DNA of 64,000 nucleotides from Chryseobacterium wanjuense (lineage in GTDB: Bacteria > Bacteroidota > Bacteroidia > Flavobacteriales > Weeksellaceae): contig NZ_FOIU01000001.1 of assembly GCF_900111495.1 (NCBI RefSeq), positions 2,170,001-2,234,000 on the forward strand, given 5' to 3'. Below the pieces are notes generated by a model, which ran no database searches, was not told the DNA's origin, and saw only the letters and a list, made by a program, of their open reading frames with translations. Of the stretch, positions 2,284-49,013 are shown piece after piece (within the stretch, counting starts at the first letter, position 1; every line of letters starts with the position of its first letter). The translations under genes and the position numbers were made by a program.

Positions 2284-2510
2284 TTTCCACGAACAAAGCA
2301 TTCAGTTTGTCATCCTGAAAGGATCTAGACTCATTTTTTGAATAACGTTGTTGAGATCCTTTCAGGATGACAAAAAGAGTGTTGAATATGTGATAAAAAA
2401 TTGAAAATCCGACAAATACCCTAGCCCCGATTGTAGTGAAAATCCTTTTTTGGAAAAAAAGATTGTAACGGAAAGCGGGAAAAAGCTCCTAAAAAATTAA
2501 ATTACAAAAT
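2284..2510. repeat. Intergenic region with palindromic repeat
   Basis: The gene-free stretch from 2209 to 2510 holds the terminator-like hairpin and an inverted repeat at 2306-2374. The arms of the repeat begin TTTGTCATCCTGAAAGGATC and end with its complement, around a roughly 27-nt spacer. The same half-sequence recurs at 18.9 kb and in the tandem array at 48.4-48.8 kb. The rest shows no coding potential. Confidence 0.75.
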
Positions 2511-15062: not shown

Positions 15063-15266
15063 TTTCTTTTGTCTTGAAACAAAAGAATCAAAAATTCAAG
15101 ACTTGGAAACTTTCGCTAAAAATTAAAACTTAATCCTAAAATTCCCAAAACTTGCGCGAAATTTAATGTTGGTTCTTCGGTTGAACACTTGTCTCGCGCT
15201 TCGGACAGTGGGAATTTTTTAACGGATTAAGTTTTAATTTTCTTAACGCTCCATTTTCCTATGTCA
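15063..15266 (+). repeat. Long-hairpin dispersed element, copy 1
   Basis: About 200 bp beginning TTTCTTTTGTCTTGAAACAA and ending near TTTTCCTATGTC. Nested complementary segments fold it into one long imperfect hairpin: AATTAAAACTTAATCC pairs with GGATTAAGTTTTAATT, AAAATTCCCA with TGGGAATTTT, and TTGCGCGA with TCGCGC near the tip. No coding capacity. Other copies: 15363-15553, 23468-23677 and 27949-28141, all in the same orientation. Confidence 0.85.
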
Positions 15267-15326
15267 TTTAAACAAAAAAACGCACCTTAAAAAAAGATAC
15301 GTTTTAAAAATATTTTAAATCCGAAA

Positions 15327-15553
15327 TTACATCGTCTCCATTTTGAAGCTTATGCTTTCGGAAACAAAGAATCAAAAATTCAAGACTTGGAAACTTCCGC
15401 TAAAAATTAAAACTTAATCCTAAAATTCCCAAAACTTGCGCGAAATTTAATGTTGGTTCTTCGGTTCAACGTTTGTCTCGCGCTTCAAACAGTGGGAATT
15501 TCTTAACGGCTTAATTTTTAATTTTCTTTACGCTCCACTTTCCTATGTCGTTT
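15327..15553 (+). repeat. Duplicated carB 3' end plus hairpin element copy 2
   Basis: Positions 15327-15360 repeat the last codons and stop of carB (real copy 15612-15645) with a single change, and the sequence before them (terminator included) is also repeated. The offset is 284-285 bp. Immediately after, at about 15363-15553, is a second copy of the long-hairpin element that lacks its TTTCTTTTGTCTTGAAAC head. This is a tandem duplication of about 285 bp covering the element, the carB terminator and the carB 3' end. Confidence 0.85.
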
Positions 15554-15557
15554 AAAC

Positions 15558-15587
15558 AAAAAAAAACGCACCTTAAAAAAGATACGT
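15558..15587 (-). terminator. Intrinsic terminator of the pyrB-carA-carB operon
   Basis: On the minus strand ACGTATCTT pairs with AAGGTGCGT (two G-U pairs) and is followed by eight or nine T. It starts about 25 bp after the carB stop. A near-identical copy exists at about 15273-15303 in the duplicated unit. Confidence 0.75.
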
Positions 15588-15611
15588 TTTAAAAATATTT
15601 TAAATCCGAAA

Positions 15612-18600
15612 TTACATCGTCTCCATTTTGAAGCTCATGCTTTCGATTACTTTCAGAATTGCTTCAACCGTATCCATTGATGTTAAACAAGGAACTCCGT
15701 TTTCTACACTCATTCTTCTGATCTGGAAACCGTCTCTTTCAGACTGTTTTCCTTTTGTCATGGTGTTGACAACGTACTGAACTTTTCCTTTCTGGATCAG
15801 GTCGATCAGGTTTACACTTTCTTCTCCGATTTTGTATCCTATTTTGCAAGGAATTCCCTGTTCTCCAAAGAATTTTGCCGTTCCTTCCGTTGCCCAGATT
15901 CTGAAACCAACTTCATGGAATCTCGCGGCCAGATCAGCCGCTTCCTGCTTATGTTTATCAGCTACCGTGAACAAGATCGAACCGTGCATCGGAACTTTTC
16001 TTCCTGCTGCGATCAATCCTTTGTAAAGCGCTTTTTCCAGCGTCGTATCTTTCCCCATCACTTCTCCCGTAGACTTCATTTCCGGGCCTAAAGAGATATC
16101 AACTTTCGTTAATTTTGAGAAAGAGAATACAGGAACTTTAACAAAGACTCCTTCTTTATTTGGAACCAAGCCGCTTTGGTAGCCTAGATCTTTCAGTTTC
16201 TGACCCAAGATAGCTTTTGTGGCCAGGTTTGCCATCGGAACTTCCGTGATTTTAGATAAGAAAGGAACTGTTCTCGATGATCTTGGATTCACCTCGATGA
16301 CATATACATTTCCTTCGAAAAGGACGTATTGGATATTCATTAGTCCGATTACGTTTAATCCTTTTGCTAATCTTTTTGTATAATCAACCAAAGTATCGAT
16401 TTCGCTTTGTGAAATATTCTGTGGAGGATACACCGCAATCGAGTCTCCGGAGTGAACTCCCGCTCTTTCAATGTGCTCCATAATTCCCGGAATCACGACT
16501 GTTTCGCCGTCGCAGATCGCATCGATTTCCACTTCTTTCCCCACCATATATTTGTCAACCAAGACAGGATGTTCAGGGCTTGCTTCCACCGCATTTTCCA
16601 TGTAGTGTGCCAATTCTGTTTCCGTGTATACAATTTCCATTGCTCTACCTCCTAAAACGTAGCTCGGACGAACCAATACCGGATACCCGATTTCGTTGGC
16701 AATTTTTATCGCTTCTTCTTTCGAAGTGGAAGTTTTTCCTAAAGGCTGAGGAATCTGCATTTCCTGAAGCGCTTTTTCAAATTTGTCTCTGTTTTCAGCT
16801 CTGTCAAGATCTTCCAGAGAAGTTCCTAAGATCTGAACGCCGTGAGAAGCCAGTTTGTCGGCTAAGTTGATGGCTGTTTGTCCACCGAACTGTACCACAA
16901 CACCTTTTGGTTTTTCCAATTCGATGATATTCATTACATCTTCTTCCGTTAAAGGCTCGAAGTATAATTTATCTGAAATTGAGAAGTCTGTAGAAACTGT
17001 TTCAGGGTTGTTATTAATGATAATCGCCTCGTAACCCATTTCTTTGATGGCCCAAACCGAGTGAACTGTTGCGTAATCAAACTCAACACCCTGCCCGATT
17101 CTGATGGGTCCTGAACCCAAAACGATGATTTTTTCCTTATCTGTAACTACACTTTCGTTTTCTTCTTCGTACGTTCCGTAGAAATATGGTGTTTCAGACT
17201 CGAATTCTGCGGCGCAGGTATCTACCATTTTGTAAACCGGCATTAATCCGTTTTCTTTTCTGAAATTGAAAACCTCGCGCTCTGTTACATTCCAAAGAGT
17301 TGCAATATTAATATCAGCAAAACCTAATTTTTTGGCTTCTAATAAAGTTTCTTTGTTGAATTTATTTTCAGCGATTGCTTTTTCGAAATCAATTAATTTC
17401 TTGATTTTCCAGATGAAGAATTTATCGATTTTACTCCATTCTACGATCTGTTCCCAGTCGTACCCTCTTCTTAAAGCATCCCCGATGATGAACAATCTTT
17501 CGTCATCACAAACTCTGATTCTTCTTTCGATTTCTTCTTCCGTAAGTGCTGCTGCCTGTTTGGTTTTTAAACCAATATGTTTAATTCCGGTTTCCAAAGA
17601 ACGGATGGCTTTTTGTAAAGACTCTTCGAAGTTTCTTCCGATGGCCATTACTTCCCCCGTTGCTTTCATCTGTGTCGATAATCTTCTGTCTGCCGTTTCG
17701 AACTTATCGAACGGGAATCTTGGAAATTTGGTTACCACGTAATCTAAAGCCGGCTCGAAGCAAGCGTATGTCTTTCCTGTAACCGGGTTCATGATTTCAT
17801 CAAGCGTTAATCCTACCGCGATTTTTGCAGCAATTTTTGCAATCGGATACCCTGTTGCTTTTGATGCTAAAGCTGATGAACGGGAAACTCTTGGGTTTAC
17901 CTCGATGATATAATAGTTGAATGAATGCGGGTCTAATGCCAACTGTACGTTACATCCCCCTTCGATTCCTAATGCTCTGATGATTTTTAGTGAAGCATTT
18001 CTCAATAACTGATACTCTCTGTCTGAAAGTGTCTGAGAAGGCGCCACAACGATCGAGTCACCTGTGTGAACACCTACCGGATCTATATTTTCCATGTTAC
18101 AAACCACAATCGCGTTGTCGTTTGCATCACGCATTACTTCATATTCAATTTCTTTGAAACCTGCGATTGATTTTTCGATAAGACACTGAGTAACCGGACT
18201 GTATTTTAGCCCTAATTCAGCGATTTCTTTCAATTCAACCTCGTTGGAAGCGATACCACCTCCTGTTCCACCCATCGTGAAGGCAGGACGAACAATGACA
18301 GGATATCCGATGTCATCAGCAAAATTTAATGCTCCTTCCACCGTGTTTACGATGTCTGATTCAGGAACGGGTTCGTTCAGTTCTCTCATCAATTCACGGA
18401 ACAAATCTCTGTCTTCCGCTCTGTTGATGGCTGAAAGTTTTGTTCCCAATACCTCAACCTTGCATTCTTCAAGAATTCCTGATTTTTCCAATTCTACCGC
18501 CATATTCAGTCCAGTCTGACCTCCCAAAGTCGGTAAAAGCGCATCCGGACGCTCTTTTCTGATGATATGACTTACAAACTGAAGTGAAATAGGCTCGATA

Positions 18601-18794
18601 TATACTTTATCTGCGATTTCAACATCCGTCATAATCGTTGCAGGGTTTGAATTAATCAAAATTACCTTGTAGCCTTCTTCCTTCAAAGACAAACAAGCCT
18701 GCGTTCCTGCGTAATCAAATTCCGCCGCCTGACCAATAATGATAGGTCCTGAACCGATTACTAAAATTGTTTTTATATCTGTACGTTTTGCCAT
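15612..18794 (-). CDS. carB: Carbamoyl-phosphate synthase large subunit
   Basis: Makes carbamoyl phosphate from bicarbonate, ATP and ammonia supplied by CarA; the product feeds both pyrimidine synthesis (pyrB) and arginine synthesis (argF' in this window). At 1060 residues it is full length. The two homologous ATP-grasp halves are clear: the first with [20 protein letters not shown] at the N-terminus and the second with [20 protein letters not shown] at about residue 560. The C-terminal MGS-like allosteric domain (about 930-1060) includes [13 protein letters not shown]. It is the last gene of the pyrB-carA-carB operon. Its last codons are duplicated downstream. Confidence 0.97.
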
Positions 18795-19046: not shown

Positions 19047-20132
19047 TTATTGATTCTTCTTATTCTTAAAATCCTCCATCAAGTGGATGAAATCATCGAA
19101 TAAGTAGTTTGCATCTTCAGGACCCGGGCTCGCTTCAGGATGGTACTGAACTGAGAAACAAGGGTAAATTTTGTGCTTCAGACCTTCGTTTGTTCTGTCG
19201 TTCAATGCGATGTGTGTTTCAATTAAATCTGTTCCTTTCAAACTTTCCTGGTCAACTGCATAACCGTGATTCTGAGAAGTGATTGCTACTTTATTTTTCT
19301 CTAAATCCAATACCGGGTGATTTCCTCCTCTGTGACCGAATTTTAACTTGAAAGTTTTCGCTCCGCAAGCCAATCCGATTAATTGATGCCCCAGACAGAT
19401 TCCGAAAATTGGAACTTTTCCTAATAATCCACGGATCATTTCTAGAGCGTGCTGATTGTCTTCCGGGTCACCAGGACCGTTTGACAGCATGACTCCGTCA
19501 GGATTCATTAGCAAAATCTCTTCTGCCGTTACATCATGGGAAACTACTATGATATCACAGTTTCTTTGAGATAATTCTCTGATAATCCCTAATTTAGAAC
19601 CAAAATCGACCAATACTACTTTAAAACCTCTTCCTGGATTTGCGTAAGGTGTTTTTGTAGAAACCATTTCCACCTGATTGGTAGGGAAAGTTGTTGATTT
19701 TAATTCTGAAACTACTGCATTATCATCAACATCTTCGTTTACGATTTTTCCTTTCACTACTCCGTGGTTACGAAGAATTCTTGTCAGTCTTCTTGTATCG
19801 ATTCCTGAAATTCCTGAAAGGTGTTTCTTTTTAAATAATTCATCTAAAGTAATCTGAGTACGGAAATTGGAAGGCAGATCACAAATTTCTTTTACGATAA
19901 GACCTTTGATAGCCGGTTCAATACTCTCATAATCATCTCTATTAATCCCATAGTTTCCGATAAGCGGATAGGTCATACAAACAATCTGACCGCAATAGGA
20001 AGGATCAGAAATTAGTTCCTGATACCCTGTCATTCCGGTATTGAAAACCACCTCTCCTGCAGTTTCCAATTCTGCTCCGAAACCTTCTCCATGAAACACT
20101 TCACCGGACTCCAGTATTAACTTTTTCTTCAT
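19047..20132 (-). CDS. carA: Carbamoyl-phosphate synthase small subunit
   Basis: The glutaminase subunit that hydrolyses glutamine and passes ammonia to CarB. Of normal length at 361 residues. The N-terminal domain includes GEVVFNTGMTGYQE and SYCGQIVCMTYPLIGNYG. The C-terminal class I glutamine amidotransferase domain has the nucleophile in FGICLGHQLIGLACG and the His/Glu pair in QYHPEASPGPED. It lies between pyrB and carB; both flanking spacers (about 235 and 252 bp) are filled with hairpin repeats, so differential RNA stability within the operon is possible. Confidence 0.97.
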   Translation of the reverse strand: MKKKLILESGEVFHGEGFGAELETAGEVVFNTGMTGYQELISDPSYCGQIVCMTYPLIGNYGINRDDYESIEPAIKGLIVKEICDLPSNFRTQITLDELFKKKHLSGISGIDTRRLTRILRNHGVVKGKIVNEDVDDNAVVSELKSTTFPTNQVEMVSTKTPYANPGRGFKVVLVDFGSKLGIIRELSQRNCDIIVVSHDVTAEEILLMNPDGVMLSNGPGDPEDNQHALEMIRGLLGKVPIFGICLGHQLIGLACGAKTFKLKFGHRGGNHPVLDLEKNKVAITSQNHGYAVDQESLKGTDLIETHIALNDRTNEGLKHKIYPCFSVQYHPEASPGPEDANYLFDDFIHLMEDFKNKKNQ

Positions 20133-20367: not shown

Positions 20368-21258
20368 TTATTTAAAGGTATACCCTTCTTTTTCCAAGGC
20401 TTCTTTTAAAATCGCCATTCTTGCAAAAACGCCGTTTTCCATTTGTTTGAAAACTCTTGAGCGTTCGCATTCTACCAAGTCTGTATCAATTTCAACCCCT
20501 CTGTTGATGGGAGCCGGATGCATGATGATGGCTTCTTTTTTCATGGCTTTTTCCCTTTCTTTCGTCAAACCATATTTTCTGTGGTAATCCGAAGCAGAGA
20601 AACTCATTTTGGCATCGTGTCTTTCGTGCTGGATTCTCAGTAACATTACAACATCAACCTCAGCAATTAATTCATCTACATTTAAATATGTTCCGTTGAT
20701 CAAAGCTCCTTCATCAAACCATTGTTCCGGACCTGAGAAGTAAACTTTTGCGCCCAGTCTTCTTAACGCTTCTGCATTTGAGTTCGCAACACGGCTATGT
20801 TTCACATCTCCTACGATTCCTACTTTTAATCCCTCAAATTTTCCGAATTCCTGGTAGATCGTCATCAAATCTAGCATACATTGAGATGGGTGGTTTCCCG
20901 TTCCGTCTCCTCCGTTGATTACAGGAATTTTTATATTTTTTAATTCATCAAAATACCTGTCTTTCTTATCTCTGATTACTACCAGATTTACGCCTAAACT
21001 TTCTATCGTTTTCACCGTATCATAAAGACTTTCACCCTTGTTTACCGAACTGTGAGATGCATCAAAAGGCACTACCTGCAAGCCTAATTTTCTTTCGGCA
21101 ATATCAAAACTTGTTTTTGTTCTTGTACTGTCTTCGAAGAAAAGATTTGAGCAAAAAACCTCTCCTTCAATTTTAGCAGTTTTTCCGTTTGCAAAAGCCA
21201 AAGCTTCTGTCAGTATCCTGTTGATTCTCTCGGTGCTTAGTTCTGTAATCGTAAACAT
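20368..21258 (-). CDS. pyrB: Aspartate carbamoyltransferase catalytic subunit
   Basis: Joins carbamoyl phosphate and aspartate to N-carbamoylaspartate, the committed step of pyrimidine synthesis. At 296 residues it is slightly shorter than the E. coli enzyme. The carbamoyl-phosphate site [10 protein letters not shown] is present, as are [24 protein letters not shown] and the C-terminal [12 protein letters not shown]. No pyrI regulatory subunit is adjacent. It is the first gene of the pyrB-carA-carB operon. Its 5' leader (21259-21380) contains a leader ORF and an intrinsic terminator, described separately, implying control by attenuation. Confidence 0.96.
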
Positions 21259-21276
21259 AATTTCTTAATTTTTTAC

Positions 21277-21307
21277 AAAAAAAAAAGCGAAGAAAATATC
21301 TTCGCTT
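21277..21307 (-). terminator. Attenuator (leader terminator) upstream of pyrB
   Basis: On the minus strand AAGCGAAGA and TCTTCGCTT form a perfect 9-bp stem with a 5-nt loop (21285-21307), followed by eight T (21277-21284). The end of the U tract is only 18 bp before the pyrB ATG, so it can only act as a leader terminator. It begins one base after the leader ORF stop codon. Confidence 0.85.
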
Positions 21308-21308
21308 A

Positions 21309-21377
21309 CTATAAATAAATATCGTATAGGGCGCTATCGCCCGGTAATTCTAATGATATAAATACTGTCTTATTCAT
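21309..21377 (-). CDS. Putative pyr leader peptide
   Basis: A 22-codon ORF starting MNKTVFISLELP and ending ALYDIYL with tandem stops (TAG TAA). It spans a GC-rich hairpin (21329-21342, GGGCG/CGCCC with a 4-nt loop) followed by a U-rich stretch (TATACGATATTTATTTATAG), and its stop codon directly abuts the stem of the attenuator. A ribosome reaching the stop codon would cover the terminator stem. This is the layout of the E. coli pyrBI leader, in which slow RNA polymerase at low UTP lets the ribosome catch up. The ATG is only 6 bp after the -7 element, so the message would be almost leaderless. Translation has not been shown; inference from layout. Confidence 0.6.
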   Translation of the reverse strand: MNKTVFISLELPGDSALYDIYL

Positions 21378-21383
21378 TAGGTG

Positions 21384-21391
21384 CAAAGATA
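21384..21391 (-). promoter_or_regulatory. Promoter of the pyr operon
   Basis: TATCTTTG on the minus strand matches TAnnTTTG exactly, and a TTTTG sits 19 bp upstream as the -33 element. It places the transcript start a few bases before the leader ATG at 21377. Confidence 0.75.
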
Positions 21392-21473
21392 CAACAATTT
21401 TACAAACTGACAAAACCAAATTTTGATTTGGATTAAAAAAACTTATTCTCTCCTTATTTTCATTTTTAAATGC

Positions 21474-21503: not shown

Positions 21504-21965
21504 ATGGATTTAAAAGACAAAATGATTCTCAGTATTATTCAGGAAGACTCTACTCTATCGGTGAAAGAAATTTCAGAAAAGATAGGTCTTACCTTTACCC
21601 CGACTTACGAGCGCATCAAACAACTTGAAAAACAGGGAATTATTGAGAAATATGTAGGTCTTTTGAATCGCGAAAAACTAGGTTTAAATATTGTCGTATA
21701 CTGTAACGTCCGCCTTAAAGAGCAATCCAAAAAAGTTTTGGAAACGTTCGAGAAAAACATTATGCAACATGATGAAGTTCAGGAAATTATCAGCCTTTCC
21801 GGCGAATATGATTATATGTTGAAAATTATTGCAAAAGATATTAATTCTTATAATGATTTTACAGTGAACGTAATTTCAAATATTCCTAATATTGGACAAT
21901 ACCACAGTTCTATTGTGCTTCATGAAGTGAAAAAATCTACTAAGCTTAAAATTGATTTGGATTAA
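21504..21965 (+). CDS. Lrp/AsnC family transcriptional regulator
   Basis: A 153-residue regulator with an N-terminal winged helix-turn-helix (about residues 1-60: LSVKEISEKIGLTFTPTYERIKQLEKQGII) and a C-terminal RAM effector-binding domain (about 65-140, including EIISLSGEYDYMLKI). Family members sense amino acids and control amino-acid metabolism. Its position between the divergent pyr operon and the arginine operon suggests a link to nitrogen metabolism, but no specific target can be derived. Monocistronic; its stop is followed by an inverted repeat shared with the converging argH side. Confidence 0.9.
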   Translation: MDLKDKMILSIIQEDSTLSVKEISEKIGLTFTPTYERIKQLEKQGIIEKYVGLLNREKLGLNIVVYCNVRLKEQSKKVLETFEKNIMQHDEVQEIISLSGEYDYMLKIIAKDINSYNDFTVNVISNIPNIGQYHSSIVLHEVKKSTKLKIDLD

Positions 21966-22139: not shown

Positions 22140-23444
22140 TCAACCCAACAACTTATTTTTCAATTTATTAAACTGATATTCTATTTTATCTAAACAAAGA
22201 TTTCCAATACTTCCCTGATGAGTATGGTTTAAATTTCCTATTTCAAAATCAAACTCATTATTTTCAATCTCCTGCCCTACCTTTATATAAGCATCACGGA
22301 ATGAACTTCCCTTTTTCACTTCTTCATTGATCTTTTCTACACTGAAAAGGTATTTGTACTTTTCATCTTCCAAAATCCCGTCTTTCACCTGAATATTGGG
22401 TAAAGTATAGTTTAAAATTTCAAGACATTCCTTTAATGAATCGATGGCCGGGAAAAGTATTTCTTTCGTCAACTGCATATCGCGGTGATAACCTGAAGGA
22501 AGATTGTTCGTCAATAAAATAAACTCGTTCGGCAACGACTGAATTCTGTTGCAACGTGCACGAACCAACTCAAAAATATCAGGATTTTTTTTGTGCGGCA
22601 TAATGCTGCTTCCTGTGGTAAATTCTTTTGGAAAGCTGATAAAATCAAAGTTCTGACTTAAATATAAACACACATCATAGGCAAATTTCCCCAACGTTCC
22701 TGCTAAAGTTGCCATCGCCATTGACAACATTTTCTCCGACTTCCCGCGGGTCATTTGAGCATAAACGGAATTATAATTCATCGATTGAAAACCCAAATTA
22801 TACGTCGTACTCTCACGGTCGATCGGGAAAGACGAACCATATCCCGCCGCAGAACCCAGTGGATTTTTATTAATGATATTTTTAACCGAAAAAAACATTT
22901 CAAGATCATCTACCAACGATTCTGCATAGGCTCCCAACCACAATCCAAACGATGAAGGCATGGCAATTTGTAAATGCGTATAACCCGGAAGCAGAATATT
23001 TTTATGTTGATCTGCCAATTTGATTAATATTTGAAAAAACTCATCCGTCAATACTGTAATTTCACGGATTTCATCAAGCAGATACAGTTTGACATCAACC
23101 AAAACCTGATCATTTCTCGAACGTGCTGTATGAATTTTCTTTCCGATATCTCCTAATTCTTCAATTAAAATAGCTTCAATCTGTGAATGGATATCTTCCG
23201 CATTTTTATCAATTTTAAAATTACCATCTAAAATATCCTGTAAAATTGCCGCCAAAACAAAAATAATTTTGTCTGACTCTTCTTTTGTGATAATTCCTAC
23301 TTCTGCCAACATCATACAATGGGCAATAGAACCTTTGACATCGTATTTCGCCAATCGTTCATCAAAGTCGAGATCTTTCCCTACTGTAAATTTATTGACT
23401 AATATGTTTGTGGCATTGTCGTCTTTTTGCCATATTTTTTTCAT
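22140..23444 (-). CDS. argH: Argininosuccinate lyase
   Basis: Last step of arginine synthesis: splits argininosuccinate to arginine and fumarate. The 434-residue protein has the fumarase/aspartase superfamily signature GSSIMPHKKNPD with the mobile catalytic loop, the HTARSRNDQV segment near residue 108, and GYTHLQIAMPSSFG around 159. It is somewhat shorter than the E. coli enzyme but all conserved regions are there. It is the last gene of the leftward arginine operon and is separated from the deacetylase gene by 256 bp containing a long-hairpin element. Confidence 0.95.
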   Translation of the reverse strand: MKKIWQKDDNATNILVNKFTVGKDLDFDERLAKYDVKGSIAHCMMLAEVGIITKEESDKIIFVLAAILQDILDGNFKIDKNAEDIHSQIEAILIEELGDIGKKIHTARSRNDQVLVDVKLYLLDEIREITVLTDEFFQILIKLADQHKNILLPGYTHLQIAMPSSFGLWLGAYAESLVDDLEMFFSVKNIINKNPLGSAAGYGSSFPIDRESTTYNLGFQSMNYNSVYAQMTRGKSEKMLSMAMATLAGTLGKFAYDVCLYLSQNFDFISFPKEFTTGSSIMPHKKNPDIFELVRARCNRIQSLPNEFILLTNNLPSGYHRDMQLTKEILFPAIDSLKECLEILNYTLPNIQVKDGILEDEKYKYLFSVEKINEEVKKGSSFRDAYIKVGQEIENNEFDFEIGNLNHTHQGSIGNLCLDKIEYQFNKLKNKLLG

Positions 23445-23467
23445 AAAATTTAATTTTCTATTTAAAA

Positions 23468-23677
23468 TTTTCTTTTGTCTTGAAACAAAAGAAACAAAAG
23501 TTCAAGACTGGAAACTCCGGCTAAAAATTAAAATTAAATCCTAAAATCCCCAAAACTTGCGCGAATTCAAAATTTATTCTTCAATTCAAAATTAGTGTCG
23601 CGCTTCAAACAGTGGGAATTTTTTAACGGATTAAATTTCAATTTTCTTAACGCCTCCGTTTCCTAAGTCGATTTAAA
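23468..23677 (+). repeat. Long-hairpin dispersed element, copy 3
   Basis: Begins TTTTCTTTTGTCTTGAAACA and ends CTAAGTCGATTTAAA, with the same nested complementary segments as the copy at 15063. It occupies most of the argE-argH spacer inside the arginine operon, antisense to the operon. Confidence 0.85.
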
Positions 23678-23700
23678 ACTTCCATCACCCAGCTTCCAGC

Positions 23701-24783
23701 CTATAAAATCTTCTCTAAAATCTTAATATAAATCTCTATTCCTTCCGCAATTTCATCGATGAAAATAAATTCATCTGCCGTGTGGGAGCGCCTGCTGTCG
23801 CCAGGACCGATTTTCACTGATGTGCAAGGAATAATCGCCTGATCGGATGACGTGGGTGAACCGTAAGTTGTCCTCCCAATTTCTAATCCCGCCTGTACGA
23901 ACGGATGATCCATTTCAATTTTTGAAGAATTTAGCCTGAAAGATCTAGTCGTTAAGGTTGATTTCATCTTTGATTGAATGATTTCAAATGCTTCCTGATT
24001 AGAATATTCATCCGTAACTCTTACATCTAAAGTAAAAGTACACGATTCCGGAACGACATTATGCTGAACTCCGGCATGAATTCCCGAAAGCGTCACCTTA
24101 ACTTCACCCAAATAATCTGAAACTTTTGGAAATTTAAAGCTTAAAATTTGCTGCAAATCTTCCATACATTTCACAATCGAGTTATCATCGTTCGGATGTG
24201 CGGCGTGGGAAGGCGTACCTTTCATTTCCCCGTCAATCACCAAAAGTCCTTTTTCCGCAATCGCCAGATTCATCTGCGTAGGTTCTCCTACAATGGCAAG
24301 CTCGATATTGGGTAACTGAGGAAACAAAGCTTCGATCCCGTCAAACCCTGAAATCTCCTCCTCGGCCGTCAAAGCGATCACTAAATTATATTGCAAATCT
24401 TCCTGAGCATAAAAATGTAAAAAAACCTGCGCCATCGAAACCAAAGAAGCTCCGGCATCATTACTTCCCAATCCGAATAATTTTCCGTCTTTTTCAATAG
24501 CCAAAAACGGATCTAACGTATACGCTTTGTTCGGTTTTACGGTGTCGTGATGCGTGTTCAGTAAAATCGACGGTTTAAAAACATCAAAATTTTTATTCAC
24601 CGCCCAGATATTATTTTTAAAACGTTTTGTAGGTATTTGATGTTTTTTGAAAAAATTTTCAATTTCCACCGACGTATTAAATTCATCCTTGCTGAATGAC
24701 GGAATTTCAATCAGTTTTTTCAACAAATCGACTGCATTATTCAGTAATTCTTCTTTATTATAAACAGATTTCAGTTCCTGCAT
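23701..24783 (-). CDS. argE: M20-family deacylase of arginine synthesis (N-acylornithine/N-acylcitrulline deacylase)
   Basis: A 360-residue zinc aminoacylase of the ArgE/DapE family. Metal ligands lie in LNTHHDTVKPN, GLGSNDAGAS and TAEEEISGFDG, and the dimerisation-domain insert follows in the middle. In pathways that use an N-acylornithine carbamoyltransferase the acyl group is removed from N-acylcitrulline, so the substrate here is probably N-acetyl- or N-succinylcitrulline rather than acetylornithine. It overlaps the end of argB by 26 bp, which fixes it in the operon. Confidence 0.88.
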   Translation of the reverse strand: MQELKSVYNKEELLNNAVDLLKKLIEIPSFSKDEFNTSVEIENFFKKHQIPTKRFKNNIWAVNKNFDVFKPSILLNTHHDTVKPNKAYTLDPFLAIEKDGKLFGLGSNDAGASLVSMAQVFLHFYAQEDLQYNLVIALTAEEEISGFDGIEALFPQLPNIELAIVGEPTQMNLAIAEKGLLVIDGEMKGTPSHAAHPNDDNSIVKCMEDLQQILSFKFPKVSDYLGEVKVTLSGIHAGVQHNVVPESCTFTLDVRVTDEYSNQEAFEIIQSKMKSTLTTRSFRLNSSKIEMDHPFVQAGLEIGRTTYGSPTSSDQAIIPCTSVKIGPGDSRRSHTADEFIFIDEIAEGIEIYIKILEKIL

Positions 24784-25552
24784 GATGGTTTTCTATATGG
24801 TTTTTTAGTTCAGTTTCTTTAATTAAGAATACTTTATTGACATTATTTTTTACAGCTCCAAGAGCGTTTTCCAACTTAGGAAGTATTCCTTTATGCAATT
24901 TTCCTTCATCTTTTAAAACAGAAAATTCTTCTTCAGAAATATTTTTTATGACAGAATCAGGATTGTCAACATCTTCCAAAACTCCCTCTTTATCAAAACA
25001 ATACAACAATTCCACATCATATTTTACTGATAAAGCCTGGGCAATCACCGAAGCAATCGTATCTGCATTGGTATTGAAAAGATGTCCTTTTTTATCGTGA
25101 GTAATTGCTGAAAAAACAGGAACTAATTCCAGTTTAAGCAACTTTGAAATTAGTTTTCTATTCACACTTTTCTCCGTAATATCTCCCACAAATCCAAAAT
25201 CTATTTCTGCGTGTTCTCTTTTTTTGGCTTTAATTAAATTGGCATCAGCACCTGAAAAACCAATTGCTTTACACTTCTTCTGCTGAAGTTTGGCCACAAT
25301 ATTTTTGTTGATCCCTCCCGCATACACCATCGCCACAATATCCAGCGTATCTTTATCCGTAATTCGCCGTCCGTTAATCATTTTTTGTTCGACGCCAAGT
25401 TTATCAGCCAAAATCGTTGCTAATTTTCCTCCTCCGTGAACAAGGATCTTCCTTTCCTTGATTTTAGAAAACTGCTCCAGAAATTCGTTCAATAATTCTT
25501 CATCATCGATTAATGCTCCGCCGATTTTTATGATGTATAATTTTTCTTTCAT
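24758..25552 (-). CDS. argB: Acetylglutamate kinase (N-acylglutamate kinase)
   Basis: Phosphorylates the side-chain carboxylate of N-acylglutamate with ATP. The 264 residues match the short enterobacterial-type kinase, without the N-terminal helix that confers arginine feedback in hexameric enzymes. Visible features: IIKIGGALIDD (phosphate-binding glycine pair), LVHGGGKLATIL, and FNTNADTIASVIAQAL near the nucleotide site. The 3' end overlaps the deacylase start by 26 bp, indicating translational coupling. Confidence 0.94.
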   Translation of the reverse strand: MKEKLYIIKIGGALIDDEELLNEFLEQFSKIKERKILVHGGGKLATILADKLGVEQKMINGRRITDKDTLDIVAMVYAGGINKNIVAKLQQKKCKAIGFSGADANLIKAKKREHAEIDFGFVGDITEKSVNRKLISKLLKLELVPVFSAITHDKKGHLFNTNADTIASVIAQALSVKYDVELLYCFDKEGVLEDVDNPDSVIKNISEEEFSVLKDEGKLHKGILPKLENALGAVKNNVNKVFLIKETELKNHIENHHAGTEICL

Positions 25553-25569
25553 TGCAATCCTTTTTTGAG

Positions 25570-25602
25570 AACCCTGTCAAGGTTTAGAACCTTGACAGGG
25601 TT
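25570..25602. repeat. Perfect 15-bp inverted repeat between argF' and argB
   Basis: AACCCTGTCAAGGTT and its exact complement are separated by TAG. It lies in the 79-bp spacer inside the arginine operon. On neither strand is it followed by a clear T tract, so a processing or stability hairpin is likelier than a terminator. Confidence 0.8.
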
Positions 25603-25631
25603 TACTAGTGAAAAACCTGTTAGGTTTGATT

Positions 25632-26606
25632 TTATTTAGAATTCAACCCATCTAAAATTTCAGAAAAAACCGCCTGAGCCGAGAAAATTCGATTTTTTGC
25701 CTGTTGATAAATAATAGAATTTTCACCATCCATTACCTCATCGCTCAACTCTACATTTCTGCGAACCGGAAGACAATGCATTACTTTTGCCTGATTGGTA
25801 TTGGCTAATTTTTCATTTGTCAGCATCCAGTTTTCTTTCACTTCCGGCATTGCTGCGTAATCATCAAAAGACGACCAGTTTTTAATATAAATAAAATCTG
25901 CATCTTTCAACGCTTCCTCCTGATTATGAACTACTTTCACATCTTTTGTGAAATTTTCATCCAAATCATAACCCTCAGGATTCGTGATCACAAAATCGAC
26001 ATCCATCTCCTGCATCCATTCTGCGAAAGAATTTCCTACCGCATGAGCAATCGGTTTAATGTGAGGCGCCCAAGTCAGCACCACTTTCGGTTTGCGCTGT
26101 ACACTGAGCTTGTCGAAGTGCCAGTTTTCAGTAATCGTGATGCAATCTGCCAAACTTTGCAAAGGGTGACGTGTAGCCGACTCCAATGAAATAACCGGAA
26201 CTTTCGCATGTTGCTCGAACTGACTTAAAATGCTTTCGTTAACATCATCTTCCTTGCTTTTCATTCCAGCAAAACAACGAACCGCGATGATGTCACAATA
26301 TTGATTTAATACTTCAATGGCATCTTTGATGTGTTCAACAGTATCACCGTTCATGACGGCTCCGTCTGCAAATTCCAGATTCCAGGCTTCCTGAGCTGCA
26401 TTTAACGTTAACACATTTAAGCCTAAATTTTGTGCCGCAATCTGGCTGCTTAAACGTGTTCTCAAACTTGAATTTAAAAAGACAAGTCCGATTGTTTTTC
26501 CTTTGCCTTTTTCAGTTTCCGAAAGAGGATTTTCTTTAATTTGTAAAGCTTTTTTTATAATTTCCTGTAAGTTTTTAACATCGCTTACAGAGGTGAATTT
26601 TTTCAT
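25632..26606 (-). CDS. argF': N-acylornithine carbamoyltransferase
   Basis: Transfers carbamoyl from carbamoyl phosphate to N-acetyl- or N-succinylornithine, as in Bacteroidota and Xanthomonas. The 324 residues contain the carbamoyl-phosphate site SSLRTR (46-51), HPLQSLAD and HCLPVRR. It is of the acylornithine type rather than ordinary OTCase: WAPHIKPIAHAVGNSFAEWM is the marker segment. In the loop at 86-92 (NGDTVEH) residue 90 is Val; from memory Bacteroides fragilis succinylornithine enzyme has Pro90 and the Xanthomonas acetylornithine enzyme a Glu at the equivalent place, so the acyl specificity is open. Confidence 0.92.
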   Translation of the reverse strand: MKKFTSVSDVKNLQEIIKKALQIKENPLSETEKGKGKTIGLVFLNSSLRTRLSSQIAAQNLGLNVLTLNAAQEAWNLEFADGAVMNGDTVEHIKDAIEVLNQYCDIIAVRCFAGMKSKEDDVNESILSQFEQHAKVPVISLESATRHPLQSLADCITITENWHFDKLSVQRKPKVVLTWAPHIKPIAHAVGNSFAEWMQEMDVDFVITNPEGYDLDENFTKDVKVVHNQEEALKDADFIYIKNWSSFDDYAAMPEVKENWMLTNEKLANTNQAKVMHCLPVRRNVELSDEVMDGENSIIYQQAKNRIFSAQAVFSEILDGLNSK

Positions 26607-48047: not shown

Positions 48048-49013
48048 TTTGTAAAATTACGAAAGATTATACAATTGTATGATGTTATATATTAATTTTA
48101 AACAAATTTTAAGAAAAGGGGTCGAGTTTCGGGTCGCAGGTTTTGGAGATACGAGGTTCGAGTTGTGGGTTGAAAGGTTGGGGGATTTTAAAGTTTCTCT
48201 GTTTTTTAGGAGCTATTTCCAGCTTTCCACTGTATCTTTTGAGTTACGGCCTCCGCTTTGCTCCGGCCGCAACTCAAAAGGATGCCGTTGCAATCTGGGC
48301 TAGGGTTTTTGTCGACTCATCAATTTCTGAATTTGATTGAACTTTATTTGCCATTCTGGAAGGATCGCAACAACAAAATTCGAAAACCCTTCGACTGCTT
48401 CGCGCTCAGGGTGACACTGGCAAATTATTTCGATTAGCTGAAACGTTTATTATTAGAGAAGTTTGTCATCCTGGAAGGATCTCAACAACCAAGTTCAAAA
48501 ACCCTTCGACTGCTTCGCGCTCAGGGTGACACTGGCAGATTATTTAGATTAGCTGAAACGTTTATTATTAGAGAAGTTTGTCATTCTGCAGGATCTCAAC
48601 AACAAAATTCAAAACCCTTCGACTGCTTCGCGCTCAGGGTGACACTGACAAATTACTTCGATTAGTTGAAACGTTTATTATTAGAGAAGTTTGTTATTCT
48701 GGAAGAATCTCAACAACAAAAATTCAAAATCCTTCGACTGCTTCGCGCTCAGGGTGACACTGGTAAATTATTTCGGATATCTGGGACGCTAAGTATTGAC
48801 GACAAACGTGGTGGTAAAATTATTATTCGACTTGAAGTTCATTGAAAAAATTCATCATAATTTAAATAACAATTAACAAATACTTAATTCACGTCAAAAT
48901 GATTTAACTTAACTTTCCATTCATTAAAAGATGACAAAAACTTAATAATATATTCTTTCAAACATTATATTTCCAACAGAACGGGACATCAATCTGATGC
49001 CCCGTTTTGCATT
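48048..49013. repeat. Gene-free region with a four-unit tandem repeat array
   Basis: A 966-bp gap. Four units at 48388, 48503, 48616 and 48731 (counted from CCTTCGAC; period 113-115 bp) each contain CTTCGACTGCTTCGCGCTCA, GGGTGACACTGGCAAATTAT, GAAACGTTTATTATTAGAGA and GTCAT-CTGGAAGGATCTCAACAAC. The array runs about 48345-48790. The left part (48048-48344) has a short inverted segment but no gene, and a small open frame at 48079 does not look like a protein. An AT-rich piece (48840-48960) and a hairpin at 48980-49006 complete it. Confidence 0.85.
48980..49006 (-). terminator. Hairpin after the Tet-type MFS gene
   Basis: AACGGG-A-CATCA pairs with TGATG-C-CCCGTT around ATC with one mismatch. It lies 8 bp after the end of the MFS gene on the minus strand. 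The T tract is weak. Confidence 0.5.

Follow-up and report, generated by a model that had tools for sequence, protein, structure and literature searches.

A candidate ribosome-coupled, pyrBI-like attenuator ahead of pyrB-carA-carB in the Weeksellaceae

PyrR is the usual regulator of pyr operons. In E. coli pyrBI, low UTP causes RNA polymerase to pause and the trailing ribosome then blocks the terminator. According to the accessible part of PMC4824070, the pyrBI terminator, which escapes repression when UTP is normal, lies inside its leader gene, whereas the terminators of amino-acid attenuators are located more than 20 bp past the leader gene, a distance that spares them ribosome block. An extract of PMC5021804 holds tight coupling across pyrL to be necessary if the terminator is not to form. 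Within the Bacteroidota, ribosome-based attenuation of amino-acid operons has already been proposed in Flavobacterium psychrophilum (PMC9723704, accessible part), and these amino-acid attenuators make ribosome-based attenuation likely in the phylum. A pyrimidine attenuator of the pyrBI type was found in no report on Bacteroidota in the open-licence literature searched, which does not prove that none exists.

In this study, the leader that precedes pyrB in Chryseobacterium wanjuense was compared with those of other Weeksellaceae. We read it, with a probability of roughly 0.78, as a ribosome-coupled, pyrBI-like attenuator placed ahead of pyrB-carA-carB, in place of PyrR. As in E. coli pyrBI, a leader ORF, a pause hairpin, a gap, a terminator and pyrB follow each other in the same order, and here too the ribosome itself would block the terminator. 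The distance from the ATG to the terminator is 69–86 nt in a non-redundant set of 37 leaders (less than 80% identical between ATG and terminator) versus 88 nt in E. coli K-12, and the best hairpin ends 19–29 nt upstream of the terminator in 36 of these 37 leaders, versus a gap of 38 nt, 37% U overall, in E. coli K-12. The Weeksellaceae leader ORF usually ends at the terminator, whereas that of E. coli ends 46 nt past the terminator start. The genes behind the leader are pyrB-carAB rather than pyrBI and, unlike in E. coli, the AUG would stand almost at the 5' end of the message, downstream of a Bacteroidota promoter.

Layout of the pyrB leader and its surroundings

The window, i.e. the whole stretch of 64,000 nucleotides that was analysed, derives from a Chryseobacterium-like genome, its PyrB being at 97–98% to those of the best named relatives. 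The order on the minus strand is leader, pyrB, carA and carB, with the following features:

21384–21415, minus strand: Bacteroidota-type promoter (TTTTG at 21415–21411, 19-nt spacer, −7 box TATCTTTG at 21391–21384)
21350–21380, minus strand: possible hairpin over the start codon, from folding (CTAATGA at 21380–21374 with TCATTAG at 21356–21350)
21309–21377, minus strand: leader ORF, 22 codons plus TAG (21311–21309), MNKTVFISLELPGDSALYDIYL, read from the sequence, with its ATG at 21377, 6 nt past the box
21329–21342, minus strand: pause hairpin GGGCG-ATAG-CGCCC, from sequence and family comparison
21311–21322, minus strand: U-rich tract ATATTTATTTAT, putative UTP-sensitive pause region
21308–21306, minus strand: second stop codon, TAA, directly behind the TAG of the leader ORF
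21277–21307, minus strand: intrinsic terminator (attenuator), with a 9-bp stem at 21307–21285, a TATTT loop and a T8 tail
20368–21258, minus strand: pyrB, aspartate carbamoyltransferase catalytic subunit (NF002032, 358 bits, cut-off 263)
19047–20132, minus strand: carA, carbamoyl phosphate synthase small subunit (NF009475, 482 bits, cut-off 221)
15612–18794, minus strand: carB, carbamoyl phosphate synthase large subunit (NF003671, 1631 bits, cut-off 599)

The promoter, 22-codon ORF, hairpins, stops and terminator had all been placed on the minus strand in the preliminary description, and re-reading of the sequence confirmed each of these positions. The pyrB ATG, at 21258, is 18 nt past the T8 tail of the terminator. 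As the Lrp/AsnC-like gene located upstream (21504–21965, plus strand) is divergent, the terminator at 21307–21277 serves no upstream gene. The folding of the leader is better than that of its own shuffles (z −3.90; 1 of 200 shuffles as good). Terminator-like sites across 12 kb number 6, against 8.7 expected, and the pause hairpin of the window leader has p = 0.085 when taken alone. The hairpins of a single leader are therefore little proof; it is the comparison within the family that takes the leader far beyond chance.

Several other elements were recorded in the window. A direct repeat is present at 15082–15645, at and just past the end of carB, with 284–285 bases between the copies; its stretches are 94% and 88% alike and each copy bears a similar terminator-like hairpin. 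Arginine genes, including argH, are found near pyrB-carAB at 22140–26606 (minus strand), one of them N-acetylornithine carbamoyltransferase-like (NF003384, 289.3 bits, cut-off 288); the arginine and pyrimidine pathways both use carbamoyl phosphate. Rfam matched the window at two places only, both of them Flavo-1 RNAs (RF01705) located away from the leader, at 2419–2486 (plus strand, 72.4 bits) and 48212–48305 (minus strand, 64.2 bits). The function of this motif is called unclear in the accessible part of PMC9723704.

Conservation of the leader in the family

We read 149 pyrB loci of the family: 80 from named Chryseobacterium together with the window, 60 from other genera and 8 more. These are a subset, PyrB having a match in 166 of 197 family genomes, and 30 loci (L081–L110) were left out. 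A script was used to search 141 loci for a promoter box, an ATG no more than 12 nt from the box and a terminator. None of the three was missing from any of the 141, and the ATG was always 5–7 nt past the box; this spacing holds in 37/37 non-redundant leaders. Three of the 8 added loci are canonical and the other five, all from the genus g36, are not. The canonical order (promoter box, ATG 5–7 nt on, short ORF, GC hairpin, U-rich tract, terminator reached by the end of the ORF, pyrB) is thus present in 144 of the 149 loci read. At one locus, L133, about 100 extra bases separate the terminator from pyrB.

The genus g36 has the canonical leader in none of its five loci. Four of them (L237–L240) instead carry a frame of 75–84 codons, or 69–83 codons after the first TTG, which stays open through the terminator and ends no more than 22 nt from the pyrB start, as in the layout of E. 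coli pyrL; two of the four loci are near-identical by eye. Their terminator has another sequence, about ACATCTT/AAGATGT by eye. The fifth locus, L241, has neither the canonical nor the long-frame leader. Outside the family, no pyrB leader of this type was seen by eye in 20 further loci of the phylum, whose starts were guessed from in-frame ATGs; in at least one of them, L277, an ORF of PyrR size lies upstream (L215 of the same genome). Within the genome of the window itself, the regions ahead of pyrD and of the 459-residue ORF holding pyrE showed no pyrB-type leader on inspection by eye.

Aspartate carbamoyltransferase itself is not universal in the family: it was absent over cut-off in 16 of 24 rechecked genomes, which had been picked mostly for having no or a weak earlier match, and 2 of the 16 are less than 90% complete. 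The genomes without it belong to the genera g27, g29, g31, g38, g40, g47, g48 and g50, so repeated loss of the gene is possible.

Because the 37 non-redundant leaders are related sequences, the counts made on them are not independent. From the ATG to a point 8 nt ahead of the first terminator G/C, a span that omits the usual stop of the ORF, frame 0 contains 2 stops in 825 codons, versus 83 in 813 and 49 in 792 for frames +1 and +2. Leaders are wholly open in 35/37 cases in frame 0, in 2/37 in frame +1 and in 9/37 in frame +2; the two with an early in-frame stop are those of L133 and L151. In 29 of the 37 leaders, the stop codon's last base falls 0–17 nt short of the first G/C in the terminator stem; in the other 8 it lies past that point, two of these having no stop in the stretch read. 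The peptides encoded vary widely between genera as judged by eye, although a start such as MKR-FPLDD is common to groups of genera. Because of these differences an arrest peptide was rejected, and the Weeksellaceae leader and the enterobacterial pyrL are likely analogous. Among 81 Chryseobacterium leaders, the variation lies in codons 3–5, 10, 14–15 and 22 and consists mostly of amino-acid changes; codon 19 is changed in three leaders, and codons 2, 6–9, 11–13, 16–18, 20 and 21 in no more than one leader each. We infer that selection bears on the open frame and the RNA more than on the peptide.

The terminator stem is paired in 99.4% of cells over the 37 leaders, with changes on both sides in 4 of its 9 pairs. 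Its sequence AACGAAG/CTTCGTT (window 21307–21285; alignment columns 109–140) is nearly invariant in these leaders, unlike the pause hairpin and the peptide, which vary freely. A common genomic repeat was rejected as the source of this stem, the pattern having 1–5 matches per genome against 0–2 for a reversed control in 8 genomes.

Pause hairpins tested one by one reach p<0.05 in 9 of the 37 leaders. When the search was restricted by place, hairpins were found in 35/37 leaders, with 23 distinct innermost 4-bp stems, and their summed score was 413 versus 42 (sd 19) in shuffles, none of 500 reaching 413; for this joint test the place window was picked from the hairpin positions of the same leaders and the shuffles were of single bases. 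In a MAFFT alignment of the 37 leaders, the pause and terminator stems jointly exceed 500/500 shuffles on all five measures, bearing in mind that related sequences may exceed such shuffles. All six pairs of the pause stem show changes on both sides. As the stems shift register between genera, only 66.7% of its cells pair in fixed alignment columns. RNAalifold reported the terminator alone from the same alignment. Compared across the family, the pause hairpin varies in sequence while its pairing and its place are kept. U makes up 54% of the 18 nt that precede the first terminator G/C, versus 32% of the 5' portion of the ORF, and 25 of 35 leaders have ATATTT in the gap; this U-rich tract would be the region of UTP-sensitive pausing.

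The preliminary description had put forward a conserved leader ORF, a terminator stem with compensating changes and a U-rich segment as features to be sought in relatives, and the open frame, the both-side changes and the U content reported above bear out all three. It had also counted tandem stops among the leader parts; these occur in only 8 of 144 leaders and are not defining.

Mode of control and alternative explanations

Regulation by PyrR, named in the preliminary description as the alternative, failed. PyrR exceeds the NF003549 cut-off in 0 of 197 family genomes (best score, 37 bits versus 138), the genome of the window giving two weak matches of 29.9 and 21.6 bits, and the leader has no Rfam match at gathering score; PyrR-dependent attenuation was rejected on these two grounds. 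By contrast, 65 of 88 genomes from the other families of the order have a PyrR that exceeds the cut-off (the sample of 99 genomes, 65 of them with PyrR, includes 11 of the Weeksellaceae), and in the other-family loci compared, where PyrR acts on the same pathway, the PyrR match adjoins pyrB in 17/17, with an ORF of PyrR size at that place. The simplest reading of these distributions would be that PyrR was lost and the attenuator gained at the root of the family or close to it.

In the pyrBI-like reading, transcription would begin almost at the leader AUG. RNA polymerase would make the pause hairpin and then cross a U-rich tract nearly free of G/C. With ample UTP, the polymerase would run on, the terminator would fold ahead of the ribosome and transcription would stop. 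With scarce UTP, the polymerase would linger in the tract and the ribosome would catch up. Since the end of the leader ORF falls at the terminator or within it, a ribosome there would cover the 5' arm of the terminator stem, and the polymerase would read through into pyrB. What the comparison shows is the family-wide order of parts, the open frame, both hairpins, the spacing, and the absence of both PyrR and an antiterminator; these, together with a geometry unlike that of amino-acid attenuators, favour the pyrBI-type reading advanced in the preliminary description. The start of the transcript, translation of the leader ORF, pausing of the polymerase and the role of UTP as the signal are inferred.

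Amino-acid leader-peptide attenuators share a short leader ORF and a terminator with the Weeksellaceae pyrB leader, but the latter has its stop at the terminator and no antiterminator was found: a competing antiterminator reached p<0.05 in 1/37 leaders, about the level of chance, and attenuation of the amino-acid type was rejected on this basis. As the stop is at most 17 nt from the first G/C of the terminator, or past it, in 37/37 leaders, the pyrB leader is not of that type, and by this geometry the Weeksellaceae leaders fall on the pyrBI side of the rule of more than 20 bp. No run of cognate codons was seen by eye in the leader ORFs.

A ribosome-coupled attenuator might nevertheless respond to a signal other than UTP, namely general translation capacity, conveyed by how far apart ribosome and polymerase are, or the charging of tRNAs used in the leader (Ile, Phe, Tyr). 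The comparison shows an ORF that makes contact with the terminator, as such a device would have, and Ile is present in 37/37 and Phe in 36/37 leaders; however, many of these codons derive from the ATATTTATTT tract itself, antiterminators are at chance level, the stop is too near the terminator for attenuation of the stalling type, and the genes regulated are those of pyrimidine synthesis. We consider this explanation improbable. Control of the terminator by an RNA-binding protein or a small-molecule aptamer appears very improbable. Over the 37 leaders the terminator stem is nearer to invariance than simple termination would demand, a possible hint of a protein, and many synonymous sites are fixed among the 81 Chryseobacterium leaders, but outside the U-rich tract the alignment has no unpaired core that is conserved, RNAalifold finds the terminator alone, the Rfam matches of the window lie away from the leader, PyrR is below cut-off in all 197 genomes, and an aptamer needs no open reading frame. 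The lack of a conserved structured aptamer core in the alignment, RNAalifold and Rfam results led us to reject a riboswitch. That the terminator is merely leaky and unregulated, fixing a low level of pyrB with an ORF that only aids re-initiation, is barely credible, as it leaves unexplained the pause hairpin at its steady distance and the U-rich tract.

Start codon, transcript start and implications

A complement of NNATG is found within 42 nt in 16/37 leaders, versus 1.8 expected from shuffles, and both CTAATG/CATTAG and CCAATG/CATTGG pairings occur over the start codon. A helix over the leader ATG has p<0.05 in 11/37 leaders and is lacking in 5/37, these counts being inflated by related leaders. 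In the 81 Chryseobacterium leaders, the codons of the stem are nearly invariant and those of the loop, codons 3–5, are variable. In fixed alignment columns, covariation in this hairpin is not above that of shuffles: 2 pairs change on both sides versus 2.1, and 49 of 500 shuffles attain the score. Only the share of paired cells is high there, with 4 of 500 shuffles as high. The hairpin was not returned by RNAalifold from the 37-leader alignment. Taken together, these data are only suggestive of a start codon hidden by a hairpin.

In the accessible part of PMC9723704, the −7 box of F. psychrophilum sits at −12 to −5. Applied to the window, this position would set the start of the transcript at about 21379, leaving about 2 nt ahead of the leader ATG. 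A near-leaderless start of this kind is unusual, as leaders exceed 10 nt in 87% of the transcripts of Flavobacterium johnsoniae (PMC6847099, accessible part) and leaderless messages represent 5.5% in F. psychrophilum (PMC9723704, accessible part). A broader reading, a nearly leaderless attenuator with two gates that replaced PyrR at the base of the family, is on the whole doubtful. With about 2 nt ahead of it, the AUG would be shut by the hairpin as soon as about 30 nt had been transcribed, so that only a ribosome loading at once on the nascent end would translate the ORF; the choice of the start nucleotide (C, U or A before the AUG) might read nucleotide pools, and the U-rich pause downstream would read UTP.

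The pyrBI-like reading of the leader, by its comparative evidence, extends UTP sensing in the style of pyrBI to a phylum far from the proteobacteria. The Weeksellaceae are without the PyrR of their neighbours, and its task seems to fall to the ribosome. If this is true, the ribosome and the RNA polymerase of Bacteroidota travel close enough together to stop a terminator from folding, and transcription-translation coupling in this phylum becomes directly testable with a short natural element. The leaders of the family, with dissimilar peptides and similar geometry, would provide natural variants for gauging how close the ribosome needs to be.
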